From NCBI RefSeq assembly GCF_030219325.1, contig NZ_CP126625.1, forward strand, positions 918,857-982,856: a stretch of 64,000 nt of DNA, given 5' to 3'. This DNA comes from Geothrix sp. GTDB lineage: Bacteria; Acidobacteriota; Holophagae; Holophagales; Holophagaceae. Made by a program: the position numbers and the translations under genes. Below are positions 3,436-61,199 of this stretch, one piece after another (position 1 is the first letter of the stretch; every line of letters starts with the position of its first letter). The notes beneath the pieces were generated by a model. It was not told the DNA's origin. It worked only from the letters and a program-made list of their open reading frames with translations, and ran no database searches.

Positions 3436-4887
3436 TCACTTCATGCCGAAGTCCTTGAGGATCTTGGGATCCTTCTCGTCCTGGGCCAGGATCGTGTGGC
3501 AGGTGTCGCAGTCGCCCTTGATGCTGCGGCCATCGGCGGCAGTGTGGTTGCCGTCATGGCAGCGGAAGCAGCCCACGGATTCCTCATGCCCGATGTTGTT
3601 GGGGTGAGTGCCCCAGGTGATCTTCATCTCGGGGAAGACGTTGCGGAGGTAGATGGCCTTCACCACCTCGCCGGCCGTGTCCACCTGGGCCCGCTTCTGC
3701 TTGTAGATCTCGGGGTAGGTGGTGCGGTAGTACTCGGCCAGGGCCACGGGGATCTTGGCGGCAGCGGCCTTCTGGTCGGCGTAGTCGACCTTCAGCAGCT
3801 CCAGGGCCTGCTTCTTGAGGAAGGGCAGCTCGGCGCTCATGCGCTTCTCGGCCATGGCCTTGTCCAGGGCGCGATCGGGCAGCTGGAAGGCGTGCGTGGG
3901 CCGGTTGTGGCAGTCGATGCAGTCCATCTTGCGGACGGTCGCCTTGTCGACGGTCTCCTTCGGCAGCTTCTTGAAATCGTCGGTGACGTACTCGACCAAC
4001 TGCCCGTTGTCATCGCGGTAGGTGACCTTGGGGATCTCCTGGCGGCGCGCGTCGGTGGTGATGTAGCTGATGCGCTCCATGGCGTCGAGGTGGCGGCCGT
4101 GGATGCCCGTGGTGCCGTTGGGCGTGTGCCCGCCGATCTTCAGCAGCAGGATGCTGGTGGACGCCGTGTTGGCCTCGTCCTCGGCGAACTTGGTGCGGAC
4201 GATGAGCTTGTCGTTGGTGAACTTCTGGGGCCAGTGGCACTGCTCGCAGGTCTCGCGGGCGGGGCGCAGGTGCTCGACGGGGCTGGGGATGGGCCGGGAG
4301 AAGGTGCCGAAGGCCACGGCGAAGAGCTGCCGCGAACCGGAGATCTTGGCCCGCACCAGGGCGGGGGCGCCGTGGCCGATGTGGCACTGGGCGCAGCCCA
4401 CGCGGGAGTGGGGCGAGTCCAGGAAGGCCGTGTACTCGGGGCTCATGACCGTATGGCAGGTCAGGCCGCAGAACTGGTTGGAGTCCATGTACTCCACGCC
4501 CTTCAGGCCCGCCGTGCCCAGGATGGACACGTTGATGAACGTGAGCACGCCCACCACCGTCAGCAGGCGGCGCACGCCGGGCTGCTTGAAATCCACCGCC
4601 TGCAGGGGCAGGGGGGTCTCACCGGCGAGTTTCCGCTGGCGGCGCAGACGGATGATGCCCAGGGGGATCAGGGCCAGGCCCACCAGGAACAGGGCCGGCA
4701 GGATCAGGAAGAGGATGATGCCCATGTAGGGATGAATGGACCGGGGGCTGGTGATTTCCATGAACCAGAACCAGACCAGCACGAAGGCCGAACTGGTCGT
4801 CATGGCCGCGCCCGCCAGGGTCATCCAGTTGTTGCCCAGCTGGAAGGCCAGCCGGGTCAAGTCTCTGACGCGTTCCGTAAAGCTCAT
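3436..4887 (-). CDS. NapC/NirT-family multihaem c-type cytochrome, inner membrane
   Basis: This 483-residue protein is probably a quinol-oxidising, membrane-anchored cytochrome c facing the periplasm. Three hydrophobic segments (~22-44, 53-79, 107-126) precede the haem region. Five CXXCH motifs (CAQCH, CEQCH, CIDCH, CFRCH, CDTCH) follow a first motif CGLTCH with three residues between the cysteines (C140, CX3CH). The HTVMSPEYTAF..SPHSRVGCAQCHIG.GA block is typical of NapC/NirT proteins of metal-reducing bacteria. The arrangement of three membrane segments plus a NapC-like domain recalls ImcH-type cytochromes in extracellular electron transfer, but that role is inference. The ATG at 4887 has a strong GGAGGT site 6 bases upstream, so a start at 4920 is unlikely. 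Confidence 0.92.
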   Translation of the reverse strand: MSFTERVRDLTRLAFQLGNNWMTLAGAAMTTSSAFVLVWFWFMEITSPRSIHPYMGIILFLILPALFLVGLALIPLGIIRLRRQRKLAGETPLPLQAVDFKQPGVRRLLTVVGVLTFINVSILGTAGLKGVEYMDSNQFCGLTCHTVMSPEYTAFLDSPHSRVGCAQCHIGHGAPALVRAKISGSRQLFAVAFGTFSRPIPSPVEHLRPARETCEQCHWPQKFTNDKLIVRTKFAEDEANTASTSILLLKIGGHTPNGTTGIHGRHLDAMERISYITTDARRQEIPKVTYRDDNGQLVEYVTDDFKKLPKETVDKATVRKMDCIDCHNRPTHAFQLPDRALDKAMAEKRMSAELPFLKKQALELLKVDYADQKAAAAKIPVALAEYYRTTYPEIYKQKRAQVDTAGEVVKAIYLRNVFPEMKITWGTHPNNIGHEESVGCFRCHDGNHTAADGRSIKGDCDTCHTILAQDEKDPKILKDFGMK

Positions 4888-4922
4888 ATACCCACCTCCA
4901 AAACCAAGGGGCCAGACCATTG

Positions 4923-22432: not shown

Positions 22433-23370
22433 TGAGCCACTCGCACGGCCCCACGACCACCGGACGGCTGGCCCTCAGCTCGCTGATCTTCGGCCTGAAC
22501 TTCCTCGTCCAGGGGGTTGGGGGCCTGTGGACGGGATCGCTGGGGCTGGTGTCCGACAGCCTGGAGAACCTGAACGACGCGGTGGTGAACCTGCTCGCCC
22601 TGGGCAGCATCCGGCTGGCCAACCGGCGCGAGCCCTGCGACCGGTGGACCTACGGCTGGCACCGGATCGAGATCTTCAACACCCTGCTGGGCGTCCTGCT
22701 CCTGGTGATCCTCGCGGGCGCCGTGCTGTTCGAGGCCTGGAACCGGGTCCAGCACCCGGTCTCCATCAAGCTGGGCTGGGCCATCGGGTTCTCCCTGGCG
22801 GGGCTGCTGCTGAACCTGGCGGCCACCTTCGTGCTCATTCCCGCCGGCGGGTCTGGCCAGGAGCGGGACCTGAATCTGCGGAGCGCCTACCTGCACGCTC
22901 TGGGGGACAGCCTGGCCAACGTGGCGGTGGTGGTGGGCATGGTGGTGATCCGCTTCACCGGCTGGAAGTGGGTGGATCCCCTCCTGGCCGCAGGCATCGC
23001 GGCGGTGATCCTGCGCGGCGCCTTCCTGCTGCTGCGGGACGCCGTGGGCATCCTCATGCACCACGCCGCCTTCGATCAGGAGGAGGCCAAGGCCGAACTG
23101 CTCCGGCTGCCGGGCGTCACGGGCATCGAGGATCTCCGCTCCTGGCGGGTCTGCAGCCACCTGACGGTCTGCACCGCCCACGTCATCGTGGAGGCCGAGC
23201 GGCTGGAGGACACGGAAGTCCACCAGCAGCGCATCGAGCACCTGCTGGCAGAGCGCTTCGGCGTGCGCCACCTCACCCTCCATTTCGAGACCAGGGCCAT
23301 GGCCGACCGCCATCAGCACCGCTTCGTGCACGAGCATGAAGCGGAAGGGTATGAGCATCATCACGAGTGA
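22432..23370 (+). CDS. Cation diffusion facilitator family transporter
   Basis: A 312-residue inner-membrane metal exporter of the CDF/CzcD type. Five to six hydrophobic segments occupy ~10-205, and a cytoplasmic metal-binding domain fills ~215-295. Both ends are histidine-rich (MSHSHG and a C-terminal HQH..HEHE..EHHH region). The second-helix site reads SDSLENLNDA, with E where many zinc CDFs have H; the fifth-helix HALGD is normal. The start overlaps the hydratase stop (two adjacent ATGs, 22429 and 22432). The substrate is probably Zn or another divalent metal, but the altered site makes this uncertain. Confidence 0.88.
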   Translation: MSHSHGPTTTGRLALSSLIFGLNFLVQGVGGLWTGSLGLVSDSLENLNDAVVNLLALGSIRLANRREPCDRWTYGWHRIEIFNTLLGVLLLVILAGAVLFEAWNRVQHPVSIKLGWAIGFSLAGLLLNLAATFVLIPAGGSGQERDLNLRSAYLHALGDSLANVAVVVGMVVIRFTGWKWVDPLLAAGIAAVILRGAFLLLRDAVGILMHHAAFDQEEAKAELLRLPGVTGIEDLRSWRVCSHLTVCTAHVIVEAERLEDTEVHQQRIEHLLAERFGVRHLTLHFETRAMADRHQHRFVHEHEAEGYEHHHE

Positions 23371-23386
23371 GGCCCCAGGCTTCCGT

Positions 23387-23407
23387 CGCGCGGGCTGCGC
23401 CCGCGCG
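23387..23407. repeat. Perfect 9-bp palindrome with TGC loop
   Basis: The arms CGCGCGGGC and GCCCGCGCG enclose TGC (GCA on the other strand). It lies between the CDF gene and the terminator at 23417. It is the third palindrome in the window with this triloop (others at 10222 and 11709). Confidence 0.6.
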
Positions 23408-23410
23408 TAG

Positions 23411-23443
23411 AAAAAAATGCGGCCCGAAGGCCGCATCCTTTTT
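23411..23443. terminator. Bidirectional intrinsic terminator between the CDF and SPFH genes
   Basis: An A-run precedes a perfect 8-bp stem (ATGCGGCC/GGCCGCAT, 23417-23424 and 23429-23436) with a CGAA loop, followed by CCTTTTT. It has the A- and T-tracts expected on both strands and separates two convergent genes. Confidence 0.9.
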
Positions 23444-23456
23444 CACTGAGGACGGA

Positions 23457-24497
23457 TCAACCCATCCCATGCTTCTTCATGATGGCGGCCCGCTGGGTGT
23501 CGAACTCGACCTGGTTGATGAGCTGGCTGTCGAAGAGGTCCTTCAGCTCCGTCAGCTCTTCCTTCAGCGACTTCGTGGGAGCCGCGGCGGCGGGGGCGCT
23601 GCCCGCAGGGAAGCCCTGCTGGCCCATCTGCTGCTGGGCGCCGGCCATCTGCTGGCCCATCATGTTGCCCATGCCGAAGCCCACGCCCATGCCCATGCCC
23701 AGTCCGGCCACGCCGCCCTGGTTCTGGGCCGCGAGGGGGATGCTGTCGGCCACCTGCATCTGCGTGTAGGCACCCATGACGGGGGCCATCATGCCCACGC
23801 CCGTGCGCTTGTCCATCATGGCTTCCACTTCCTCGGGGAGGCTGATGTTCTCCACGAAGAACTTGGACAGCTCCAGGCCCATGGTCTTGAACTCTTCCTG
23901 CAGCTTCTGCTTCACGAAATCGGAGATCTCGTCGTACTTCGCGGCCAGGTCGAGGGCGGGGATCTTGGCTTCGCCCAGGGCATCCGTGAAGCGGCTCATG
24001 ATGGTCTTGCGCAGCTGCTCGGAGATGTCGGGCACCGTGTACACGCCGTTGGTGCCCACCAGCTGGCGCAGGAAGGTGGCACTGTCCACCACCTTGATGG
24101 AGTAGATGCCGAAGGCCCGGATGCGCAGCATGCCGAAGTCGGCGTCACGCATCATGATGGGGTTCGAGGTGCCCCACTTCAGGTCGTTGTAGAGTTTGGT
24201 GGAGATGAAGTAGACATCGCTCTTGAAGGGGCTCTCGAAGCCGTACTTCCAGCCCTTCAGGGTGGCGAGGATGGGCAGGTTCTGGGTGGTCAGCCGGTGG
24301 GTGCCGGGCTTGAACACGTCCGCCATCTGGCCTTCGTTGACGAAGACGGCCTCCTGGCTTTCACGCACCACCAGCTGGCCGCCGTTCTGAATCTCCTGGC
24401 CCCGCATGGGGAAGCGCCAAGCCAGCGTGTCCGTGGAATCATCCAGCCATTCGAGGATGTCGAGGAATTGGGCTTTGCCCCAGTCCATCAGACCCAT
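23457..24497 (-). CDS. SPFH/Band 7 domain protein with C-terminal SHOCT-like segment
   Basis: A 346-residue protein of the YdjI-like SPFH family (virion core protein-like), thought to form membrane-associated scaffolds. The SPFH domain spans ~20-235. A glycine/methionine/glutamine-rich low-complexity stretch (~265-310) follows. The end (~318-346) is a SHOCT-like helical pair (LKDLFDSQLINQVEFDTQRAAIMKK). No clear membrane helix is visible. The ATG at 24497 (MGLMDWGK) has GGAG ten bases upstream; the longer start at 24518 has no such support. It is the last gene of its strand before the bidirectional terminator. Confidence 0.88.
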   Translation of the reverse strand: MGLMDWGKAQFLDILEWLDDSTDTLAWRFPMRGQEIQNGGQLVVRESQEAVFVNEGQMADVFKPGTHRLTTQNLPILATLKGWKYGFESPFKSDVYFISTKLYNDLKWGTSNPIMMRDADFGMLRIRAFGIYSIKVVDSATFLRQLVGTNGVYTVPDISEQLRKTIMSRFTDALGEAKIPALDLAAKYDEISDFVKQKLQEEFKTMGLELSKFFVENISLPEEVEAMMDKRTGVGMMAPVMGAYTQMQVADSIPLAAQNQGGVAGLGMGMGVGFGMGNMMGQQMAGAQQQMGQQGFPAGSAPAAAAPTKSLKEELTELKDLFDSQLINQVEFDTQRAAIMKKHGMG

Positions 24498-57967: not shown

Positions 57968-58129
57968 GGGCAGGTCCCTCCACCCATGACAGTGCCACAG
58001 ATGGCCGGGCGGATCCCAGACCCCGCGCCAGGTCCGCAGCGTGGCGGCGGGTAGGGCCGGCACCAAGGTAAGCTGGACCGGCAAGCGGCGTCCCTCCTCA
58101 ACCCGCGCGTGCATGCAGGAGCCCCCTCG

Positions 58130-58702
58130 ATGAGTGCCACCGTCCCTGGATTTGGTCAGCTTCTCCTGGCGGCCGCGGCCTGTGTTCAGGTCGCCTCCGC
58201 CAGTGAGCCCCGGCTCCGGGTCAGCTCGGAGGTCTGCAAGCCTGCAGACGTGGTCCTGATCAACCAGGACGGCCAGAAGGTCAGGCTCAAGCAGATCCTG
58301 GAATCGGGGGATCCCGTCGTCCTGAATTTCATCTACGGCCACTGCACCACCATCTGCCCGACCCTCTCGGCGGGGTACGCCACCCTCCAGGGCAGGCTCG
58401 GCGCCAGTTCGGGGAAGGTCCACCTCATCTCCATCACCATCGATCCCGACCGCGACACGCCGAAGGCCCTGAAGGACTACATGCGACGGTTCCGGGCCAG
58501 GCCTGGCTGGGACTGCCTCACGGGGAGCCGCAGGGACATCGATGCGGCCATGCACGGCATGAACACCTTCATCCCGGACCTGTCGTCCATGGTTCCAATC
58601 ACCATGATCCGCCCCGCCGGTTCGGAGCAGTGGGTCCGGATCTTCGGTCTGATGAGTTCTTCCGAGTTCATCGAGCAGTGCCGGAGGACCGGCATCCTGT
58701 GA
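58130..58702 (+). CDS. SCO1/SenC-like exported thioredoxin-fold protein
   Basis: A 190-residue exported protein of the SCO1/SenC family, copper chaperones or thiol oxidoreductases for haem-copper proteins. A signal peptide (~1-24) precedes the thioredoxin-like fold. The copper/thiol motif CTTICP (CxxxCP) lies in NFIYGHCTTICPTLS (~64-78), and SITIDPDRDTP follows. The C-terminal His that normally completes the copper site is not seen; the aligned place reads DLSSMVPITMI. AGGAG precedes ATG 58130. It is convergent with, and next to, the octahaem cytochrome, which may need copper. Confidence 0.85.
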   Translation: MSATVPGFGQLLLAAAACVQVASASEPRLRVSSEVCKPADVVLINQDGQKVRLKQILESGDPVVLNFIYGHCTTICPTLSAGYATLQGRLGASSGKVHLISITIDPDRDTPKALKDYMRRFRARPGWDCLTGSRRDIDAAMHGMNTFIPDLSSMVPITMIRPAGSEQWVRIFGLMSSSEFIEQCRRTGIL

Positions 58703-58798: not shown

Positions 58799-60859
58799 TC
58801 AACCCTTGTTCGTGCCGCCGGCCTTGGCGGAAGCCAGGGTGCTTCCCTTCAGGAAGGCCTGGGCCCCCTGGACGAGCACCTTCGCCTCCTGCACCTTGTC
58901 CGCGGTGAGCGTGGGGGCATGGACGCCCCAGGAGCCGTCCTTCTTGATCGTGGCGACGATCTCGCGGGCCTGGTTGACCATCACCTGGACCTGGGCCTTC
59001 TCGGCCTTGCCGAGCTGGCTCTTGGCCAGGGCGGGCCCCAGCTCCTTGAGGGCGGCCTCGACTTCGGCCAGCCCCGACTTCACGGGGTTCTGCCAGGTCA
59101 TGACCTTGTCGTAGACCATCTTCTGGTTGGTGAAGAGCAGGTCCTTCGGCATGGAGGACATGGCCGGGCTGTGGCAGCCGCCCGCGGCGGCCAGGGCGGA
59201 GTCACCCCAGCTGGTGCGACCGCAGGACCACATGAGGTCGATGTAGGGCTTGCCGTCCTTTTTGGTGAGACGCCAGGCGCCTTCGCGGTAGTTCCGGTCC
59301 TTGCCTTCGGGCGGGTTGAGGGTCTTCGCCGCAGGATCGACGAGGATCTTCCAGATGTGGGAGGCCCGCTGCGCATCGAACCCACCATAGTCCGGGTACT
59401 GGATGGAGCCGAAGTTCTCGCAGCTCCCCATCGCGGGCATGTGGCAGCTGGCGCAGCTGTTGGCCCCGTGGATCTCATTCTTGGCGAAGAAGGCGGCCTG
59501 GGTGGCGTGGCAGTCCTGGCACTTCTTCCTCAGGGCCGGGACTGTGACGGACTCGCGCCAGTCGTTCTGGGTCACTTCATGGGGGTCGTGGCAGGTGCCG
59601 CAACCCATGCCGTGTTCCTTGTGAGAGGTGTAGTAGGACTGAGAGCCTTCGGTGCCGCAGGAGGGATGGAGGCTCTTGAAATAAGCCGAGAACTGATGCT
59701 TGGGATCCTTCTTCGCCTCGTCCGAGTTCCAGGCGAAGCGCTGGTGGCAGCGCTCGCAATTGGAGGGCAAGCCGGCCCCGCGTGCGCCGACCAGGTGGGC
59801 GCCGGCACCGTGGCATTCCTCGCAGGAAATGCCCTTGTTGATGGTGTGCTTGCGGAGTTCCGCCGGCTTGCCGAGGGCGGCGAAGAGCTCGTTCTGGTTC
59901 TTGAAGTCGAACTTGAAGGAGTGGCAGACCTCGCAGTACGAACTGGCCGGCTGGAAGAGCATGCTCTTCTGGTTTTTGGCCCCGTAGGAGGAGAAGCCCC
60001 AGATCTTCGACCCGTTGTCTCCGAAGCCCTTCAGGTCGGTGGGGAAACCCGGGACGTAGGCGGCGATCTTCTTCGTCATCTCGGGCGTGATGGATTCGGC
60101 CCAGGTCCGGCTGTGCTGGTTGCCGCCGGCCACCAGGGTGCCGGTGCCGTCCTTCAGCAGACCACCCTCGATGTGGTAGGTCCCGCGGACGAGCCAGGGA
60201 TCCAGGAAACCGTACTTGGTGCGGGGCGTCCCGATGACGGCGAAGATCGAGTCGGCGGTGATGCCCGGCGGGAGGACGGAGACGTCCTTGGTGCCGTAGA
60301 GCCCCTTGTTCAAGTCCTTGCCCGGGATCTCATCCATCTCGTCGGGAAAGCGGACCACCTTGGCGTGGCGGGAGCGGGACCATTTCTCGTACTGGACCGG
60401 GTGGCACTCGCCGCACTTCTTCGCACCGACGAACTTGTTGGGGAAGTCGAGAATGGATTCCATCCCAAGGCGGTAGGTGATGGCGGCGTGCCGGTTGTTC
60501 TCCTCGGCGAACTTCTTGCCTCCCCCGAACTCGACGAACTCCTCCTCGCGGTCACTGATCTGGTACTTGCCGACGAGGCGGCTGTTCTTCTCGTAGGTCG
60601 TGAAGAGCGGGTGGTTCTTCTTCAGGAAGTCGTGGAAGGCCTTCTCCTGTTCCACGTAGCCCTCGAGCGTGCGGGGGCCCTCCTCGGTCGCCTCCTTGGC
60701 GGCAGGCTTCGCCGCTGGGGTCTTGCGGGCGGCCATGGTCCCGGCGGTCGCCGGTTTGGCCGGAGCCTGGGCGGGGCCAGGCTTCTCGGTCGCATGCAGG
60801 CCCACGAGAAGGGCCAGGCCACCCATGATCACCATGAGTCTTCCCCACTTCCACTTCAC
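58799..60859 (-). CDS. Octahaem c-type cytochrome, MccA/SirA sulfite reductase-like
   Basis: A 686-residue exported cytochrome. A basic N-terminus and hydrophobic stretch (~6-22) form a signal peptide or anchor, followed by an Ala/Pro/Lys linker (~25-60). Seven CXXCH motifs start at C149, C309, C346, C368, C420, C447 and C469. A further C546-X15-C562-H563 gives an eighth site. Exactly two cysteines, C401 and C480, belong to no haem motif. CX15CH plus seven CXXCH is the signature of MccA/SirA dissimilatory sulfite reductases, whose active site also holds Cu(I) on two cysteines. The GTG start (60859) follows GGAGGTGGGTT; an ATG at 60919 lacks a ribosome site. No mccB-D or dedicated haem lyase genes are seen here. 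Confidence 0.88.
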   Translation of the reverse strand: MKWKWGRLMVIMGGLALLVGLHATEKPGPAQAPAKPATAGTMAARKTPAAKPAAKEATEEGPRTLEGYVEQEKAFHDFLKKNHPLFTTYEKNSRLVGKYQISDREEEFVEFGGGKKFAEENNRHAAITYRLGMESILDFPNKFVGAKKCGECHPVQYEKWSRSRHAKVVRFPDEMDEIPGKDLNKGLYGTKDVSVLPPGITADSIFAVIGTPRTKYGFLDPWLVRGTYHIEGGLLKDGTGTLVAGGNQHSRTWAESITPEMTKKIAAYVPGFPTDLKGFGDNGSKIWGFSSYGAKNQKSMLFQPASSYCEVCHSFKFDFKNQNELFAALGKPAELRKHTINKGISCEECHGAGAHLVGARGAGLPSNCERCHQRFAWNSDEAKKDPKHQFSAYFKSLHPSCGTEGSQSYYTSHKEHGMGCGTCHDPHEVTQNDWRESVTVPALRKKCQDCHATQAAFFAKNEIHGANSCASCHMPAMGSCENFGSIQYPDYGGFDAQRASHIWKILVDPAAKTLNPPEGKDRNYREGAWRLTKKDGKPYIDLMWSCGRTSWGDSALAAAGGCHSPAMSSMPKDLLFTNQKMVYDKVMTWQNPVKSGLAEVEAALKELGPALAKSQLGKAEKAQVQVMVNQAREIVATIKKDGSWGVHAPTLTADKVQEAKVLVQGAQAFLKGSTLASAKAGGTNKG

Positions 60860-61199
60860 AACCCACCTCCGGATATGGCCGGCCACAAGCTCCCTGCCGG
60901 GTCGAATGAGAAAAGACATTCCAACCGCTGCGATGATCCGATTGATGATCGCAAGATCGTTTAAAAGGTAGGTTCAAAAATAAACAACCATGAGGTAATC
61001 TTTAGTGATCTTGTGCACATTCCCGGCGAGAGCAGGTGCGGCCAGGCAATGCCGCCGCTCCGGTTCCAGCGGACCCGACCCGCACGCAGGGCCCGGGCCT
61101 TCCGGTGGCCAGCCTGGCTGATCTGGACATCTGGTCGCGGGGGCCGGCTCCGAGCCCGATGTCAGGGTCTATCCGCCGGGGGCCGATGAACAAACCAGC
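60860..61199. other. Divergent intergenic region between octahaem cytochrome and hybrid kinase
   Basis: A 340-bp gap with an AT-rich centre (60920-61020). A direct repeat GATGATC at 60932-60938 and 60944-60950 is seen, and on the minus strand TTGTTT is followed 17 bases later by TTAAAC, a possible weak promoter for the cytochrome. The right third is GC-rich and carries only short frames. No RNA gene was recognised. Confidence 0.55.

Follow-up and report, generated by a model that had tools for sequence, protein, structure and literature searches.

The window, by which we mean the whole 64,000-nucleotide stretch of Geothrix sp. DNA analysed here, encodes on its minus strand an octahaem cytochrome c for which a sequence-only reading had proposed an MccA/SirA-type sulfite reductase. 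The question raised by this locus is whether that identity is correct and, if so, how the haem at its unusual CX15CH motif could be attached in a genome where no dedicated lyase is found. The gene and its critical sites are:

58799..60919, minus strand: mccA/sirA homologue, a 706-aa octahaem cytochrome c (alignment to MccA, motif set, purifying selection)
59171..59224, minus strand: CX15CH motif (C546..C562-H563), putative catalytic haem site, aligned to the CX15CH of MccA
59657..59659, minus strand: spare cysteine C401, aligned to MccA chain residue C411
59420..59422, minus strand: spare cysteine C480, aligned to MccA chain residue C507

The minus-strand frame is open from 58799 to 60859, corresponding to 686 aa from a GTG at 60859, and the full open reading frame begins at an ATG at 60919 to give 706 aa. 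Residue numbers (C401, C480, C546 etc.) are those of the earlier reading, counted from 60859. The N-terminus has a hydrophobic signal-like segment, LMVIMGGLALLVGLHA, followed by a Pro/Ala-rich linker and then the haem domain; we take the 706-aa protein to be secreted. Reading the translated frame bore out the motif set originally described, with seven CXXCH motifs, one CX15CH (C546-X15-C562-H563) and exactly two cysteines, C401 and C480, lying outside the haem motifs. Chance and a frame artefact were both rejected as the origin of this pattern; the protein was shuffled 20,000 times without once giving seven CXXCH motifs, and the frame is open. The mccA codons are under purifying selection, with dN/dS of 0.13-0.23 when the window copy is compared with its congeners and of 0.12-0.24 over all pairs of congeneric copies. 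The AlphaFold2 model of the cytochrome is poor (mean pLDDT 51).

The best match among solved structures is Wolinella MccA (PDB 4rkm; phmmer E 1e-198), with 50% identity across 629 residues. All 16 haem cysteines and all eight haem histidines align with those of MccA, and the CX15CH coincides with its CX15CH, as it does with that of the Shewanella proteins. Other multihaem families can be discounted, the next PDB matches being found only at E 0.06. C401 and C480 fall on C411 and C507 of the MccA chain, and the Shewanella proteins agree. The published Cu(I) ligands of MccA are Cys399 and Cys495, which have the same spacing of 96 as chain C411 and C507, so that the suggestion that the two spare cysteines lie on the copper ligands is upheld. 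The residues that presumably line the active site of MccA correspond to Y129, K215, Y292, R374 and K395, and these also align. The ten positions checked (C546, C562, H563, C401, C480, Y129, K215, Y292, R374 and K395) are identical in all of 21 sequences spanning Acidobacteriota, Geobacteraceae, Anaeromyxobacter, Shewanella, Leminorella, Duodenibacillus and Campylobacterota. Membership of the MccA/SirA family is secure, because it is indicated by the MccA alignment, by the retention of haem, copper and active-site positions and by purifying selection alike. Sulfite reductase activity is predicted from that membership.

We note two variations within the family. In many homologues (e.g. L009, L011-L019, L024 and L061) the cysteine that comes first in the copper site closes a CPxC sequence, which is absent from the window copy (HPSC) and from Wolinella (GPGC). 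The MccA homologue of Campylobacter aviculae (L014:1423-3258) has CX17CH in place of CX15CH, and adjoins a CcsA1-like lyase and a rhodanese-multihaem-cytochrome fusion.

The gene is rare and patchily distributed. Among 396 genomes sampled across the phylum the window genome, a single contig of 3.73 Mb, was the only one with an mccA match; a full search of the family found the gene in 6 of 77 genomes, all of one genus, where it is present in 6 of 47 species. Identity to the window protein is 77-84% for the Holophagaceae MAGs and 68-71% for Geobacteraceae and Anaeromyxobacter, and these three groups form one clade in the tree (support 100/100). No plasmid-borne homologues of mccA were found. The homologues of this orphan clade (L008-L012, L024, L060 and L061) have 69-84% identity and a common branch, and none has an adjoining lyase or MccD; they differ in their other neighbours, which may be SCO1 alone, SCO1 and NosL, a set of PPIase, rhodanese, SCO1 and molybdopterin enzyme, or none of these. 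One congeneric MAG copy (L060:9251-11356, genome G407) has an in-frame TGA within a haem motif (CEE*H), and is either a pseudogene or the product of an assembly error.

Stretches of 8-22 kb around the orphan-clade genes contained no haem lyase and no MccD/SirD beside mccA. Outside this clade, each homologue whose flanks could be read is accompanied by a lyase of SirE or CcsA1 type. The loci of Campylobacterota and of Shewanella and Duodenibacillus have varying sets of MccB, MccC and MccD together with a CcsA1- or SirE-type lyase; the lyase is of SirE type in Leminorella and of CcsA1 type in Campylobacter aviculae.

Nor is a dedicated lyase encoded elsewhere in the window genome. Genome-wide counts rest on family searches, in which PF01578 covers CcsA, CcmF, NrfE and CcmC. 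These found one Cytochrom_C_asm (PF01578) protein with one ResB adjoining it (L062), both of housekeeping type, and no dedicated CcsA1/SirE-like lyase in the complete genome. A lyase of that kind, the absence of which the sequence-only reading had named as counting against its proposal, is therefore missing. Congeners lacking MccA have a CcsA with 80-84% identity to this one, but its identity to the CcsA1 proteins of Sulfurospirillum or Helicobacteraceae is only ~24%. Four CcsA types occur across 47 genomes of the genus, that of the window being near-universal, and none tracks mccA; co-inheritance of a lyase with mccA within the genus was thus rejected. The absence of the lyase is too weak to overturn the identity of the enzyme, given 50% identity to MccA and retention of all the catalytic residues checked. 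What it puts in doubt is whether a dedicated lyase is needed in every case, as the rule has it.

The genome has a second unusual haem motif. A pentahaem NrfA was rejected as its nitrite reductase, the match in this genome being an octahaem enzyme:

G000:C1, about 22661-24376 (L100:4661-6376): octahaem nitrite reductase

This matches 8rv0 with E 4e-242, and has seven CXXCH motifs and one CMQCK (CXXCK). Nine congeners that were checked have a pentahaem-type NrfA in place of the octahaem enzyme; the haem motifs were read for two of these and are all CXXCH.

In Wolinella, three lyases divide the attachment of haem to CXXCH, CXXCK and CX15CH motifs; to our knowledge, studies of maturation within the MccA family have been confined to organisms that have a dedicated lyase. 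Such a lyase is required for the CX15CH haem of Wolinella MccA (PMC6976685, PMC10663686), and a review from 2023 states that CXXCK and CX15CH come with dedicated machines (PMC10663686). Where PMC12285233 cites Kern 2010, engineered CXXCK motifs alone are described as not hemylated by NrfI. The CcmF of Shewanella is thought to handle both CXXCH and CXXCK (PMC12285233), a partial precedent for the action of one synthase. Most simply, CXXCH, CXXCK and CX15CH are probably all handled here by one ResB-CcsA pair, a System II synthase, because it is the sole haem-attachment machine in a genome encoding all three. With some reserve we favour the wider proposal that, since a single pair could do this, the dedicated lyases found in Wolinella, E. 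coli and Shewanella would be lineage-specific additions and no chemical necessity.

Two other explanations bear on the CX15CH haem. The enzyme might be an MccA-type sulfite reductase with this haem attached by a lyase of unrecognised kind, not by ResB-CcsA. We consider this unlikely. In both systems studied a dedicated lyase is standard, but the genome-wide search for the CcsA/CcmF/NrfE/CcmC family gave one protein, with ResB also found once. In nearly all other carriers of mccA the same search did pick up lyases, of System I or System II. Slightly less likely again is a haem bound non-covalently or through one cysteine, leaving a cytochrome that has seven haems or is only partly matured and shows little activity as a sulfite reductase. 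Such a product would be in keeping with a genome lacking a dedicated lyase and with the congener copy interrupted in a haem motif; yet invariance of C546, C562 and H563 in 21 of 21 sequences and purifying selection on the gene are not expected of an unused site.

The mcc/sir accessory genes had been described as absent from the neighbourhood, and this stands for the lyase and MccD. They are not wholly absent, however, because the following gene adjoins:

58109..58702, plus strand: SCO1/SenC-family thioredoxin-fold protein (PF02630, E 2e-20)

It is convergent with mccA, from whose 3′ end 96 bp separate it. SCO1 adjoins mccA in four of six congeneric carriers, the other two loci having no adjoining SCO1. 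The two genes are convergent in the window, L010 and L060; in L008 SCO1 is downstream on the same strand and is followed by NosL. That congener is the one with NosL beside mccA; the window genome has a single NosL, encoded elsewhere. In Shewanella, copper handling is represented in the cluster by NosL/NosD-like genes. SCO1 is also near mccA in the Geobacteraceae locus L012, where a NarJ-like chaperone and a molybdopterin oxidoreductase with its Fe-S subunit are found too (L012:11993-16433), an arrangement that suggests a combined sulfur-oxyanion reduction cluster.

The SCO1-like protein is a probable partner of MccA, acting in copper insertion or thiol reduction. Alignment indicates that these proteins keep CX3CP, with MVP or no His at the position where Sco proteins carry a copper-binding His. 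The protein may act in thiol reduction or as a copper donor of an unusual kind; since the usual copper-binding His is apparently missing, it may do the former and not the latter.

No MccC/MccD (SirC/SirD) quinol dehydrogenase genes lie near the window mccA. The sequence-only reading had proposed a search of the genome for an NrfD-like quinol dehydrogenase; five NrfD-family proteins are encoded elsewhere, all in other contexts. A candidate quinol dehydrogenase is present within the window:

3436..4920, minus strand: NapC/NirT-type multihaem cytochrome (five CXXCH and one CX3CH), the only one in the genome above cut-off

It could be linked to MccA. Its CX3CH sits where NrfH-type proteins have their first haem motif, and is possibly a further unusual motif for the single synthase. 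One of the five NrfD-containing sets adjoins a PhsA-like molybdoenzyme, which could yield sulfite from thiosulfate. DsrAB was not found in the window genome, where the sole sirohaem sulfite reductase is assimilatory.

With no MccCD partner encoded close by, a different physiological substrate (e.g. nitrite, hydroxylamine or another sulfur oxyanion), or a role in detoxification instead of respiration, has to be weighed. The multihaem reductases of this superfamily are versatile; OcwA accepts nitrite and hydroxylamine as substrates and does not reduce sulfite (PMC6703420). We nevertheless regard this as improbable; all the copper-site residues and the active-site residues that we ascribe to MccA are kept, and nitrite is already covered by the octahaem nitrite reductase.

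Our preferred explanation, to which we assign a probability of about 0.8, is a periplasmic MccA/SirA-type sulfite reductase of an orphan lineage, matured by the single ResB-CcsA, fed by a general quinol dehydrogenase and assisted by the SCO1-like partner. Sulfite would be reduced to sulfide at the CX15CH-bound haem together with Cu(I) held by C401 and C480. Electrons would probably be delivered by an inner-membrane quinol dehydrogenase of a general kind, either the NapC/NirT multihaem protein or an NrfD-type complex, and the PhsA-like enzyme of the same genome could supply the sulfite. All eight haems, that of CX15CH included, would probably be attached by the housekeeping ResB-CcsA, and the CXXCK of the nitrite reductase would need to be handled by that pair too. 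The SCO1/SenC-like protein would aid copper loading or cysteine reduction. The orphan lineage would thus work with neither an adjoining MccCD module nor an adjoining CX15CH lyase. We infer activity, copper binding, electron route and single-synthase maturation of the window MccA from sequence.

The enzyme itself is an expected member of its family; the surprise is a complete genome that has two unusual haem motifs and no dedicated lyase. What is new is the context, i.e. the orphan clade, the lyase-free flanks and the one-synthase genome, drawn from one complete genome and from homology. This runs against the stated dedicated-lyase rule, and because a complete genome combines one synthase with both unusual motifs, lyase specificity becomes directly testable. 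A possible sulfite-reducing route is added for the Holophagaceae, and an MccA lineage is found with no usual quinol dehydrogenase alongside.

The window protein shares with Wolinella MccA (4rkm/4rkn) the seven CXXCH motifs and CX15CH, the copper-site cysteines and the residues ascribed to the active site. It differs in lacking C212 of the Wolinella protein, and its gene has no adjoining mccBCD or ccsA1, with the SCO1-like gene there instead. The SirA-type proteins of Shewanella (L016-L018) are 53-56% identical to it and have the identical motif set. They have an extra Cys three residues ahead of the first copper cysteine (CPSC), where the window protein has HPSC. The Shewanella clusters, unlike the window, include rhodanese, FKBP, SirG, NosL and a SirE (CcmF-type) lyase, and sometimes SirCD.
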